From Undibacterium paludis (GTDB lineage Bacteria > Pseudomonadota > Gammaproteobacteria > Burkholderiales > Burkholderiaceae_D), in NCBI RefSeq assembly GCF_022568815.1, contig NZ_JAKZHX010000001.1, forward strand, positions 868,001 to 932,000: 64,000 bases of DNA. The letters are read 5' to 3'. Below the pieces are notes generated by a model. The model saw nothing but the letters and a program-made list of their open reading frames with translations, was not told where the DNA came from and did not search any database. The translations under genes and the position numbers were made by a program. This document shows positions 30,402 through 34,561 of this stretch, one piece after another (within the stretch, counting starts at the first letter, position 1; each line of letters starts with the position of its first letter).

Positions 30402-30707
30402 TAATGAAAAATTCTCAATAAATCAGAAACACTATATTGCCACATACCTGTATCGAGTCAATCAGCAGAAACTTGCCACAGGCAAACATGCCCGGTAAAC
30501 ATGATCAGAAAGTCCTGAACCATGATTTATAATCCTGTCGCCGCCAGTACGCATTCCATGTTTCTGCACACTAAAAAATTATCGCAAAATCAAGGTGCCT
30601 AGCTGATCATGGCAATGCCAGCTTGTTTTCGAGCGACTTCGCGGTATGCCGGAACTGGCAATTATTATTTCAGTACCAATTTCAGTGCCAATATCAACAA
30701 GGAAGCG
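30402..30707. other. Gene-free stretch between LysR and the M48-AIM24 operon
   Basis: 306 bases holding the divergent control region. It contains the dyad at 30473-30485 and a perfect TATAAT at 30528-30533 on the plus strand. I see no good -35 element at the usual distance, so the promoter may need an activator. If it is used, the M48 transcript has a leader of about 170 bases. An ATG at 30609 is in frame with the peptidase but less likely to be the start. Confidence 0.45.
30473..30485. promoter_or_regulatory. Inverted repeat in the LysR/M48 intergenic region
   Basis: TTGCC-ACA-GGCAA, a perfect 5-base dyad with a 3-base centre, between divergent genes. LysR proteins commonly bind dyads in such places, but the classical T-N11-A box is not exact here. 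Confidence 0.4.
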
Positions 30708-31949
30708 ATGGACTCCAGCGCGTTTGCAACAAGCAATTATTCATGTCATGCCTTCCATGCGTCCTTGCCGGGCGGCAGGGACGCCGGTGAACTGAGCCTG
30801 GCACAATCCGGTCTCAGCTATCGCGTTGGCCCCCTTGTCGGCACCCTGCCATTTGCCCGCCTGGAACTGAGTCTTGGTGGCGCGGCAAACAAACTGGTCT
30901 TCATCCGGCATCCGCATCATCCTGATCTGGCCTTGTATACCAGCGACCTGAGCATACTGAAAAACCCGGTCTTGCGGGCTCACCCGGAATGTGCGCAACA
31001 AATTTCCAAAGCGCATGGCAAGCGCAGGATGGGGTGGGCAGTACTGACAGGCATGACATTGTTGCTGGTCGCCCTGCCTCTGGGAATGATCTGGAACATG
31101 GATCATCTGTCCGTCTATGCAGCGCGCCAGGTGCCGGTATCATGGGAAACCAAACTCGGCGCCAGCGTGGCGGCACAACAGGACCTGACTGACAAAAAAA
31201 TGCCCCAGGCTGAAGCAGAAGCCTTGCTCAAGCCTCTGACCACCCCACTGCTGCAGGCGATCCCCGATTCACCTTATCGCTACACCATCAGCATCGTCAA
31301 TGACAGCACGACGAATGCCTTTGCCCTGCCGGGCGGCTATGTCACCATCAATTCCGGCCTCATCCTGAAGGCGGGCAGCGCCGAAGAATTGCTCGGTGTA
31401 CTCGCGCATGAATGCAGCCATGTGGAACAAAGACATGGTGTGCGCAGCATCATCAGCAACACCGGTATTTACCTGGTGGCCAGCGCGGTATTCGGTGACG
31501 TCAGCGGCTTGCTGGCAACGATAGGCAGCGCCGGCCCCATGCTCCTGAGCCAGCAATATTCAAGACATTTCGAAAGCGACGCCGATGAAAAGGCGGTGGT
31601 GCTGCTACAGCGTGCAAAAATCAATCCTGAAGGCTTGCCACATTTCTTTGAGCGCATGATTGCCGAAGAAAAAGCCGTGCTGGAAAAGATAGAGAACAAA
31701 CAGGCACGAGAAGCCTACAAGAACGCCATGGGCTTGCTCAGTACGCATCCGGCCAGTGAAAAACGCATGGCGAATTTACGCCATCTGATAGCCAGATCCC
31801 AGGGACCATACATCGATCAGGACGCGGCTTTCAAGACTTTGCAGGAAGCCGTGAAGAAATTTGTCGCCACTGTGCCAAAATCGTCCCCAAAATCTGAAAC
31901 CTCATCTGAAGTACCACCTGCATCAGCAGTCACATCGTCGCAACAATAA
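30708..31949 (+). CDS. M48 family membrane metallopeptidase
   Basis: Predicted zinc endopeptidase of the HtpX/Oma1-like M48 family, 413 residues. The first 85 residues are a small domain without signal peptide, then one membrane helix (about residues 108-127, GWAVLTGMTLLLVALPLGMI) and the catalytic part. The zinc site is HECSH, with His234 and His238 as ligands and Glu235 as catalyst; the downstream Glu ligand is in RHFESDADEKA. The C-terminus is Ser/Pro-rich. The ATG at 30708 has AAGGAAGCG upstream; an in-frame ATG at 30609 adds 33 residues unlike the family. It is followed after 14 bases by three AIM24 genes, which strongly implies a joint membrane function. Confidence 0.9.
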   Translation: MDSSAFATSNYSCHAFHASLPGGRDAGELSLAQSGLSYRVGPLVGTLPFARLELSLGGAANKLVFIRHPHHPDLALYTSDLSILKNPVLRAHPECAQQISKAHGKRRMGWAVLTGMTLLLVALPLGMIWNMDHLSVYAARQVPVSWETKLGASVAAQQDLTDKKMPQAEAEALLKPLTTPLLQAIPDSPYRYTISIVNDSTTNAFALPGGYVTINSGLILKAGSAEELLGVLAHECSHVEQRHGVRSIISNTGIYLVASAVFGDVSGLLATIGSAGPMLLSQQYSRHFESDADEKAVVLLQRAKINPEGLPHFFERMIAEEKAVLEKIENKQAREAYKNAMGLLSTHPASEKRMANLRHLIARSQGPYIDQDAAFKTLQEAVKKFVATVPKSSPKSETSSEVPPASAVTSSQQ

Positions 31950-31963
31950 AAAGGAGAATCGTA

Positions 31964-32623
31964 GTGAAAGCAAACATTAAAGGTGGACATGCTTTTTCCT
32001 ATGTCGAGCTTGAGCTCGAACCGGGCGAAAGCTTATTGACCGAACCTGACGCCATGTCCAGCATGGACGCCAACCTGGATTTGACAGCCCACTTCAATGG
32101 CGGCCTGATCAGCGGTCTCTTGCGCAAATATCTCGGTGGCGAATCGCTGTTCATCAGCCGCTTCAAGAACGCCACATCGGCACCACGCCGCATCACCATC
32201 GTGCAACCTACGCCAGGTGAAATCCTCTGCAAGGAATTGCGTGATGAAGTCTATTACATGCAGCCCGGCGCCTTCCTGGCCTGTGAAGAAGGCGTCAAGA
32301 TCGGCCTGGGCTTTGCCGGTTTTGCCTCATGGATAGCGCGGGAAGGCCTGTTCCGCATCAAGGTCAGCGGTAACGGCAAGGTCTGGTTTGGTGCCTACGG
32401 CGCCTTGCTGGAAAAAGAAGTGAATGGTGAATACATCGTCGACACCAGCCACCTGGTTGCTTATGATCCTTCCCTGCGTCTGAACCTGCAACTGGCCGGC
32501 GGCCTGTTTTCCAGCTTTTTTGGTGGTGAGGGACTGGTGACGCGCATCAGTGGCAAGGGCAAGATCGTCATACAGACGCGCAGCATCTCCAGCCTGGCCG
32601 ACTGGCTCAATCCCAAACTGTAA
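31964..32623 (+). CDS. AIM24/TIGR00266 family protein 1
   Basis: A 219-residue member of the AIM24 (TIGR00266) family, a beta-rich fold whose eukaryotic founder is a mitochondrial inner-membrane-associated protein; the bacterial role is unknown. Family motifs are LGGESLFISRF, the central GAFLACEEGVKIGLG and GEYIVDTSHLVAYDPSL, ending in a hydrophobic LAGGLFSSFFGGEG. The start is GTG, with AAGGAG seven bases upstream. It is the first of three adjacent paralogues in one operon with the M48 peptidase, each separated by about a dozen bases. Confidence 0.9.
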   Translation: MKANIKGGHAFSYVELELEPGESLLTEPDAMSSMDANLDLTAHFNGGLISGLLRKYLGGESLFISRFKNATSAPRRITIVQPTPGEILCKELRDEVYYMQPGAFLACEEGVKIGLGFAGFASWIAREGLFRIKVSGNGKVWFGAYGALLEKEVNGEYIVDTSHLVAYDPSLRLNLQLAGGLFSSFFGGEGLVTRISGKGKIVIQTRSISSLADWLNPKL

Positions 32624-32635
32624 CAGGACGCAATC

Positions 32636-33319
32636 ATGCACGTAGAATTAGTCAATCAGCCCGGCAATACCGCTGCCAAGGTCAGCCTGCGTCCCGGCGA
32701 AGTATGCACAGCCGAATCCGGCGCCATGCTGGCCATGAGCAGCAATATGCAAATCACGACCACCACCCATAAAAAACAGAGCGGCTCCCTGTTCAAGGCT
32801 GCCAAACGCCTGCTCGGTGGTGAGTCCCTGTTCCTTAATCACTTTGAGCCGCAGGATACACCCGGTGAAGTCTGGCTCGGTACCGACCTGGCCGGTGACA
32901 TGGTGGTGCTGCCACTCAACAACGATAACCTGATCGTCCAGGGCGGTTCTTTCCTGGCTTGCGACGAAGGTATAGAAGTCGATCTGGGCTGGCAGGGTTT
33001 CAAATCCATCCTATCCGGCGAAAGCATATTCTGGCTCAAACTCAAAGGCCGGGGTACGGCTGTGCTGTCCTCTTTTGGCGCCATATATCCCATAGAGATT
33101 GATGGCGACTACATCGTCGATACCGGCCATATCGTCGCCTTCAGCGAAACCCTGAACTTCTCGATTACCAAGGCAGGCAAGAGCTGGTTGCAATCGATAC
33201 TGGGCGGCGAAGGCCTGGTGTGCAAATTCTCTGGCAAGGGAACTGTCTGGTGCCAGTCGCACAATGAAAGCAGTTTCGGCAGCCTGCTGGGGCCGAATCT
33301 CAAGGCCGGCAGCAAATAA
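32636..33319 (+). CDS. AIM24/TIGR00266 family protein 2
   Basis: A 227-residue AIM24 protein, second of the tandem set. It shares LLGGESLFLNHFEP, GSFLACDEGIEVDLGWQGF, LSGESIFWLKLKG and GDYIVDTGHIVAFSETLN with its neighbours, but the copies are clearly divergent from each other rather than recent duplicates. It starts 12 bases after the previous stop codon. No signal peptide or certain membrane helix is seen; the glycine/hydrophobic segment near SWLQSILGGEGLV may touch the membrane. Confidence 0.9.
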   Translation: MHVELVNQPGNTAAKVSLRPGEVCTAESGAMLAMSSNMQITTTTHKKQSGSLFKAAKRLLGGESLFLNHFEPQDTPGEVWLGTDLAGDMVVLPLNNDNLIVQGGSFLACDEGIEVDLGWQGFKSILSGESIFWLKLKGRGTAVLSSFGAIYPIEIDGDYIVDTGHIVAFSETLNFSITKAGKSWLQSILGGEGLVCKFSGKGTVWCQSHNESSFGSLLGPNLKAGSK

Positions 33320-33330
33320 TAAGGACAGAC

Positions 33331-34407
33331 ATGAATAATCCTACAATAGACGTCGTTCTCACTGGCGAGCTCAGCGACAGCATCAATTTCGAACAGGCCT
33401 GTGCAGCGATAGAAAAAATGTTCAAGCTGTCGAATGAACAGGCACAGCAATTGCTGAACACGGCACCGCGTATCATCAAGCGCGGCCTGGACGCAGCAAC
33501 TGCAGAGAAATACCAGCAAACCATAGAAAAAGCCGGCCTGAAAGTGCAGTTGAAAAACAACGAAGCCGCCGCCCAGCCACTTGAAAATACGGTCGCGCCG
33601 CCACCGGTGCCGGCAACTGCAGCCCCTGCTGTTGCAACCGCGCCAGTCACTGTCAAAGCGACAACCCCGGTCGTAGCAGATACCGATATGCCCAAGACAT
33701 CAAGCAGTAAAATCCTGGCTGTCACGACTGCACCGGACAAGTTTGACGGCCTGGAATTCAAGGTCGACGGCCGCCCGGACTTTGCCTTTCTGACCGTCAA
33801 ACTGCCAGCCGGACAAATGCTGAAAGTGGAAGCCAGCGCCATGGCAACCATGGATACCAACCTGGTCATGAAAACCAAGATGAAGGGCGGCATCTCGCGC
33901 ATGCTGTCAGGTGAAAACCTCTTCCTCAACGAATTTACGGCAGAAGGCGGCCCAGGCGAAATCGGCATCGCCCCGGCCACACCTGGCGACCTGATCCATC
34001 GTCACCTGCGTGGCGAAGTCCTGTACCTGCAAAGCGGTGCTTTTGTGGCCAGCACACCTGACATCACCATAGAAACCAAATGGCAAGGCTTTACCAAGGG
34101 TTTCTTCTCAGGTGAAAGCCTGTTCCTGATCCGTGCATCCGGCGAAGGCGACCTGTGGCTCAACAGTTACGGCGCCATCATAGAAATTGACGTCAAGGAT
34201 GGTTATGTCGTCGATACCGGCAATATCGTTGCCTTTACCGAAGGGTTGGAATACAGCATCAGCAAGGTAGGCGGCTACAAATCATTATTCTTCTCCGGCG
34301 AAGGTTTTGTCTGCCGCTTCAAGGGCGAAGGCAAGCTGTGGATACAAACCCGCAGCGTTGGCGCATTTGCTGGTTGGGCAAGACAATATCGTCCGGCCAA
34401 GGAATAG
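33331..34407 (+). CDS. AIM24/TIGR00266 family protein 3 with extra N-terminal domain
   Basis: A 358-residue protein with an AIM24 domain at about residues 135-355 (SGENLFLNEF, SGAFVASTPDITIETKWQGF, DGYVVDTGNIVAFTEGLEYS). Ahead of it is a separate 75-residue domain (IDVVLTGELSDSINFEQA through RIIKRGLDAATAEKYQQTI) and a Pro/Ala/Thr-rich linker. The small domain resembles a short regulatory module found at the start of various proteobacterial membrane-system proteins, but I cannot name it with certainty. It is the last gene of the M48-AIM24 operon, starting 11 bases after the previous stop. Confidence 0.88.
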   Translation: MNNPTIDVVLTGELSDSINFEQACAAIEKMFKLSNEQAQQLLNTAPRIIKRGLDAATAEKYQQTIEKAGLKVQLKNNEAAAQPLENTVAPPPVPATAAPAVATAPVTVKATTPVVADTDMPKTSSSKILAVTTAPDKFDGLEFKVDGRPDFAFLTVKLPAGQMLKVEASAMATMDTNLVMKTKMKGGISRMLSGENLFLNEFTAEGGPGEIGIAPATPGDLIHRHLRGEVLYLQSGAFVASTPDITIETKWQGFTKGFFSGESLFLIRASGEGDLWLNSYGAIIEIDVKDGYVVDTGNIVAFTEGLEYSISKVGGYKSLFFSGEGFVCRFKGEGKLWIQTRSVGAFAGWARQYRPAKE

Positions 34408-34421
34408 CGACACCTGCGCAG

Positions 34422-34452
34422 CCGCCACCGGCGTATGGAAGCCAGGTGGCGG
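34422..34452 (+). terminator. Possible hairpin after the AIM24 operon
   Basis: CCGCCACC (34422-34429) can pair with GGTGGCGG (34445-34452) across a 15-base loop, shortly after the last AIM24 stop codon. A second hairpin CGGATTG/CAATCCG lies at 34500-34519, just before the SDR gene. Neither has a strong U-tract. Confidence 0.45.
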
Positions 34453-34561
34453 TCTCGCCTCATTACTGAAATCTATTCAGCAATATCATGAGCATTAACC
34501 GGATTGTTGCAGCAATCCGATTTCGCCATACTGACCTTTCCAACACTACCAAGGAAAGACC

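Follow-up and report, generated by a model that had tools for sequence, protein, structure and literature searches.

A four-gene locus in Undibacterium paludis

We analyzed a stretch of 64,000 nucleotides from the genome of Undibacterium paludis (contig NZ_JAKZHX010000001.1, positions 868,001 to 932,000 of the forward strand), hereafter the window, and focused on four consecutive genes of its + strand. The first gene (30708..31949) encodes an M48 metallopeptidase of 413 amino acids (aa), comprising a predicted PH-like N-terminal domain, one membrane helix, and the M48 domain. It is followed by three genes encoding AIM24/TIGR00266 proteins, which we call A1 (31964..32623, 219 aa, GTG start), A2 (32636..33319, 227 aa), and A3 (33331..34407, 358 aa), the last of which has an added N-terminal domain. 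The M48 gene starts at the ATG at 30708, preceded by AAGGAAGCG; the mechanical open reading frame begins at 30609. The first-pass annotation of this DNA had described a HECSH peptidase with one membrane helix followed by three AIM24 genes after 14, 12, and 11 bases, and this description was borne out. The M48 protein matches Pfam PF01435 with 103 bits (cut-off 20.3), A1, A2, and A3 match PF01987 (AIM24) with 195, 225, and 220 bits (cut-off 25.7) and also exceed the cut-off of TIGR00266, and the re-measured intergenic gaps are exactly 14, 12, and 11 bases. Judging from this close spacing, the four genes are likely carried on one transcript. The genome has 12 M48 matches and four AIM24 matches, the latter being the three of the operon and a single copy on contig C6.

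Distribution and conservation of the operon

A scan for A2 in 84,980 species genomes retrieved 37 loci, from which we removed a distant single AIM24 gene (L059). The remaining 36 are orthologous, and since the scan used exact peptide patterns, there are at least as many. Adding the window, a genome of another genus of the same family (G001), and two Bacteroidota plasmid records gave 40 loci, the nearest named ones being those of Undibacterium hunanense, umbellatum, and pigrum. The complete series M48-A1-A2-A3 is present at 36 of the 40. Three of the incomplete loci are interrupted by contig ends: L037 leaves the contig within A3, L057 within A2, and L053 starts within A1. At 19 of the 38 loci with both M48 and A1, the two genes overlap (starts were picked by script). 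The whole block is found in Pseudomonadota (Beta- and Gammaproteobacteria), Bacteroidota, and Sumerlaeota, and the trio of AIM24 genes also in Planctomycetota and in a Spirochaetia bin; several loci come from metagenome bins, the taxonomic assignment of which was taken as given. Because the block is conserved across phyla, a chance arrangement is excluded, and the M48 gene and the three AIM24 genes are a real four-gene unit.

The operon is patchily distributed. The orthologous trio is present in 7 of 43 sampled genomes of the genus, most close relatives being without it, in 2 of 60 genomes of the family, and in 1 of 300 order genomes and 1 of 370 class genomes, both of the latter being the window's own genome. 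The first-pass annotation would have been contradicted by a gene order lost even among close relatives; instead, the order is kept where the unit occurs, though few genomes of the genus have the unit at all. In the genus sample, the seven carriers have genomes of 5.9-6.7 megabases (Mb) and the others of 3.2-5.2 Mb, except for one 6.4-Mb genome without the trio. Clustering the flanks of the 40 loci by similarity revealed no fifth conserved gene: even the commonest flanking family was present at just 11 of the 40, and its position varied. Relatives of A2 occur in 51 of 72,556 plasmid records. Four plasmid regions were examined among the 15 listed, and two of them, from Flammeovirga and Aureibacter, have the full block. 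Carriage by phages was rejected, as A2 matched just 2 of 50,697 phage records, at 28-33% identity.

The four proteins appear to have traveled together. Their distance matrices are correlated (Mantel r 0.74-0.91 over 36 loci, and 0.74-0.82 over 25 non-redundant proteobacterial loci), and 0 of 2000 permutations gave values as high as those observed. A profile of the N-terminal domain of the operon-type M48, scored on at most 11 candidates per genome, identified 1 of 370 class genomes and 2 of 60 family genomes, which are exactly those with the orthologous trio.

Three old AIM24 lineages

The AIM24 domains of the window share only 34-38% identity with each other. Across loci, A2 is 61-75% identical in the scan loci outside the Undibacterium-like ones (L059 apart) and 48% identical in Aureibacter. 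We built a tree of 68 AIM24 proteins covering 18 of the 40 operon loci, using a quick method with SH-aLRT (Shimodaira-Hasegawa-like approximate likelihood ratio test) supports only. Across phyla, the A1 proteins lie together on one side of a branch (support 98), and so do the A3 proteins (support 99). The 18 A2 rows share one side (support 100) with six long-branched rows from other triplets, which interrupt A2. This separation of A1 and A3, nearly complete for A2, indicates that the three-way split is older than the spread of the operon across phyla. The paralogues had been described as old and widely divergent, and the tree agrees, bar the six rows that interrupt A2.

The triplets of G005, G048, and G009 were considered as further copies and rejected, as they are not orthologous to the operon trio. 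Besides the two family genomes with the orthologous trio, three of the 60 sampled have such a different, very divergent AIM24 triplet. Within the family, divergent triplets lie at L015:5887-8117, L016:6053-8142, and L017:462-2468, with no M48 gene in the stretches read. L015 and L016 have a subtilase (S8) gene directly upstream on the same strand, and the stretch of L017 begins too near the triplet to judge this.

A1-A3 have the same domain and fold as the single-copy AIM24/TIGR00266 proteins of known structure, 1PG6 and 1YOX. A model of A1-A2 resembles these two with Foldseek E-values of 2.8e-14 and 1.0e-11, and A3 was likened to 1PG6 by sequence (E 5.2e-26). The operon differs from single-copy AIM24 in having three ancient paralogues in a fixed order behind a protease gene, and in the N-terminal domain of A3. 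As far as hydropathy can tell, the three proteins have no clear membrane helix: a strongly hydrophobic segment was found in 1 of 40 A1, 0 of 39 A2, and 2 of 38 A3 proteins.

The AIM24 domain of A3 spans residues 143-341 (33757..34353, PF01987). That A3 carries an added N-terminal domain was already part of the first-pass annotation, and we can now liken this domain (33343..33558) to the C-terminal domain of ribosomal protein L7/L12 (PF00542, E 3.5e-5). The match has 24.5 bits with the protein and 27.4 bits in the genome search, for a cut-off of 25.9, and is weak in one further comparison. Conversely, a profile of 19 A3 N-terminal domains retrieves, at E 3.8e-5, the L7/L12 protein of the window's genome. 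The domain is found in 33 of 38 A3 proteins. In L051 a GYF_2 domain takes its place, and no added domain was detected by profile in the A3 of L052, L053, L060, and L061 (223-231 aa). These five proteins are all outside Pseudomonadota. That this domain is exchanged and the remainder of the protein retained would fit a docking arm. The window's genome encodes another protein of 218 aa (L066:1318-1974) with a weak L7/L12-like match of 23.3 bits, below the cut-off.

An M48 protein with a predicted PH-like domain and a membrane helix

The M48 protein has the features of its family, i.e., the PF01435 match, an HExxH motif, and a downstream ExxxD. The HECSH zinc motif (residues 234-238, 31407..31421) would provide two ligands, H234 and H238, and E289 (31572-31574) the presumed third. 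H234, E235, H238, E289, and D293 are unchanged in 34 of 34 aligned M48 rows. We modelled the protein with AlphaFold2 (the structure predictions of this study were built on alignments of 32 and 31 rows) and obtained an overall predicted local distance difference test score (pLDDT) of 87.3 and a predicted template modelling score (pTM) of 0.74. Residues 11-90, with pLDDT of about 93-97, form seven strands and then short helices. Many solved PH domains match residues 4-93 (Z up to 7.6, i.e., below 8; Foldseek E 0.008-0.1); the VIA-align 2 rows re-examine Foldseek matches only, and absence there excludes nothing. According to the model, the N-terminal domain (residues 9-90, 30732..30977) is thus likely PH-like. 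A long predicted helix (93-129) encloses a hydrophobic stretch at about residues 108-127 (31029..31088), read from hydropathy as a single membrane helix with a positively charged N-side, and the protease domain comes next. In all 38 operon M48 orthologues scanned for hydropathy and charge, the N-side of the helix carries on average more positive charge than its C-side. From this charge and the positive-inside rule, we infer that the PH-like domain would be cytoplasmic and the protease domain periplasmic.

The fold of the protease domain is closest to 3c37 (Z 24.6) and BepA (Z 24.3). HtpX, which the first-pass annotation had used for comparison, proved a poor guide. The NCBIfam HtpX equivalog models give 14-30 bits for cut-offs of 245-422, the fold also disagrees, and we rejected this identity, the domain being closest to BepA and 3c37 by both scores and fold. 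The protein shares the protease fold of the BepA/LoiP/3c37 type, but it scores far below the NCBIfam cut-offs of M48_BAM_BepA (78.5 bits for 570) and M48_lipo_LoiP (54.6 bits for 365). BepA and LoiP are not known to have a PH-like domain or an inner-membrane helix, both of which are predicted for the operon M48, and no PH-like domain is known in mitochondrial OMA1.

AIM24 and M48 genes are also associated outside the operon

To assess the context of single-type AIM24 genes, we analyzed 66 loci: 60 regions chosen from order and class hit lists before their neighbours were seen, and 6 earlier ones. The sample is a subset of the hits, includes a locus with a TerD fusion (L110), and weighs related genomes alike. 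In 19 of the 66 loci, the next gene downstream on the same strand, at most 400 bases away, encodes an M48 protein, and 22 have an M48 gene anywhere in the stretch. By chance, such adjacency would be expected in about 0.1 of 66, if 12 of some 5800 genes (an assumed number) encode M48 proteins. The order of these pairs, AIM24 first and M48 second, is the reverse of that of the operon. Hence, the AIM24-M48 association recurs in two gene orders, which strengthens the link between AIM24 and a membrane protease that had been proposed from the window alone. The single AIM24 of the window's genome has no M48 gene within the 13 kilobases (kb) read around it. In the family, AIM24 genes have two contexts at least, beside M48 (in the operon and in L021) and beside ter genes (in G001).

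The M48 proteins of these pairs have the same plan of N-terminal domain, helix, and protease, and the N-side of the helix is positive in 19 of 19. Their N-module aligns with that of the operon type with an hhalign probability of 96.9% (E 1.7e-10 over 132 columns that take in the membrane helix), and its profile reaches the window's M48 at E 8e-9 in the genome search. We then used this profile (A11; 11-12 first-look candidates scored per genome) to search for carriers; order genomes had contributed 13 of its 18 rows and were left out before the co-occurrence test. AIM24 is also present in 10 of 16 N-module carriers, for 2.1 expected (p 2e-6, uncorrected for relatedness). Among these 16 are the window's genome, three carriers with weak partial matches (E 7e-5 to 7e-4), and G143, whose AIM24 match is below the cut-off. 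Over all 29 order carriers of the single-type N-module, 23 have AIM24.

Possible functions of the operon

The combination of an M48 gene with three AIM24 genes appears to be undescribed in the literature searched, although its parts are of known kinds. Searches of the open-licence literature by family and database names found no report joining AIM24 and M48, and one lead for DUF124 was rejected because it concerns DUF1240 (PMC7046647). In yeast, Aim24 resides in the inner membrane and has ties to MICOS, to cardiolipin composition, and to respiratory complexes; its C-terminus is protected, which places it either in the matrix or within the membrane (PMC3975624). Mitochondria thus have both an AIM24 protein and an M48 peptidase, OMA1, in the inner membrane (PMC13226697, PMC3975624); the yeast Aim24 paper does not mention Oma1, and no link between the two was found in the literature searched. 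In plants, the AIM24 proteins PAWH1/2 are members of the Hrd1 degradation complex. They support a machine that degrades membrane proteins (PMC6677890), as is proposed below for the operon, but their partner is a ubiquitin ligase complex rather than an M48 protease, and they have their own predicted membrane helix. The same source describes AIM24 as three TRAP-like repeats, presents a flat-faced homotrimer of PAWH modelled on the bacterial structures, and stated in 2019 that the physiological function of every bacterial AIM24 protein was unknown (PMC6677890).

We tentatively propose, as a reading that may well need revision, that the operon is a self-contained membrane proteolysis module in which an AIM24 scaffold organizes an inner-membrane M48 protease acting in the periplasm. 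The retention of three AIM24 lineages together invites the idea that A1, A2, and A3 assemble into a heterotrimer, which would form a ring of nine TRAP-like repeats at the cytoplasmic side of the membrane, where ordinary AIM24 has been proposed to form a homotrimer. Such a ring may bind the PH-like domain of the M48 protein, or nearby lipid, and thereby gather or gate the periplasmic protease and control its action on envelope proteins. The N-terminal domain of A3, whether L12-like, GYF_2, or none, would be an exchangeable docking arm, and the single AIM24-M48 pairs a simpler form of the same system. A broader version, which we regard as rather doubtful, is that bacterial AIM24 is the scaffold of a class of inner-membrane M48 proteases that have a PH-like domain in the cytoplasm, and that it has here become an obligate ring of three parts whose docking arm can be exchanged, foreshadowing the membrane-organizing role in mitochondria and the degradation-supporting role in the plant endoplasmic reticulum. 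The repeated association of AIM24 with a single protease architecture, in either gene order, offers the family a concrete and testable partner. If the proposal is correct, the roles of AIM24 in membrane organization in yeast and in protein degradation in plants would be joined by a common bacterial theme.

Several observations weigh against a protease module of this kind. Co-inheritance by itself is no proof of contact between the proteins, and a model of A1-A2 as a single read-through chain (pLDDT 75, pTM 0.70) gave no sign of a defined complex, although it does not decide the matter either way. In one Planctomycetota bin (L051), the trio occurs without M48 within a 13.3-kb stretch. Among single AIM24 loci, 47 of 66 have no adjacent M48, and AIM24 went undetected in 6 of the 29 order genomes that carry the single-type M48 N-module. 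On the M48 tree, the operon type occupies one side of a branch with supports of only 49/41, the single type requires two changes, and the outgroups are long-branched, which leaves the relationship of the types unsettled. A sigma-70 scan of the + strand called no promoter site upstream of M48; its two promoter-like calls fall within A1 and at the end of that gene.

Among the alternatives, an organizer of membrane lipids is unlikely but deserves attention. AIM24 rings would order lipids or respiratory complexes, and the protease would trim a component, proteolysis being secondary. PH-like folds often bind lipid, and the M48 protein has such a predicted fold. The ties of yeast Aim24 point the same way (PMC3975624), but in both arrangements AIM24 is linked to a protease gene, and the motif residues of the protease are invariant in the operon type. 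We find it improbable that the operon is a passively co-transferred block, kept by joint transfer rather than joint work of members that act separately: this would account for the patchy distribution and the changing neighbours, but not for the fixed internal order, the retention of three lineages as a set, and the recurrence of a reverse-order AIM24-M48 pair elsewhere. A translation-linked device, in which the L12-like arm of A3 would draw translation factors or ribosomes to the membrane and the protease clear faulty nascent envelope proteins, seems very improbable. The similarity to L7/L12 is reciprocal, if weak in one comparison, and widespread among A3 proteins, but the domain is undetected or replaced in five of them and is therefore not essential to the core function; the L12-like fold also occurs in non-ribosomal adaptors such as ClpS.

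Finally, a chemical stress system of the Ter type, with AIM24 partnering TerD-like proteins, can hardly be credited: AIM24 genes are known in ter clusters, and are thus found in a conserved gene cluster there as in the operon (PMC5822837), and a TerD-AIM24 fusion exists in L110, but TerD is missing in 14 of the 15 carriers searched among the 40 loci (2 of the 15 as plasmid records only), the window's genome included, and the exception, G001, has TerD (1.026 Mb) and a single AIM24 (1.025 Mb) about 2.3 Mb away from the operon (3.355 Mb). A Ter context for the operon was thus rejected on the 15 carriers searched. The fusion protein of L110 (584 aa) adjoins a second AIM24 gene (L110:3953-6083).

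Surroundings of the operon

Directly behind A3, the + strand has stable stem-loops (34408..34560; RNA fold z -4.3 relative to shuffles), which are possibly the end of the transcript; a scan for T-run terminators called nothing in 34408..34560. The genes flanking the operon encode, according to Pfam, a LysR regulator, an SDR enzyme, a NIPSNAP protein, and a solute-binding protein. Five related gammaproteobacterial loci (L030, L032, L034, L036, and L039) have a DUF4136 gene just upstream of M48, ending between 3 bases inside the M48 gene and 25 bases upstream of it. Its product reads as lipoprotein-like from its sequence (the Pfam analysis covered L030).

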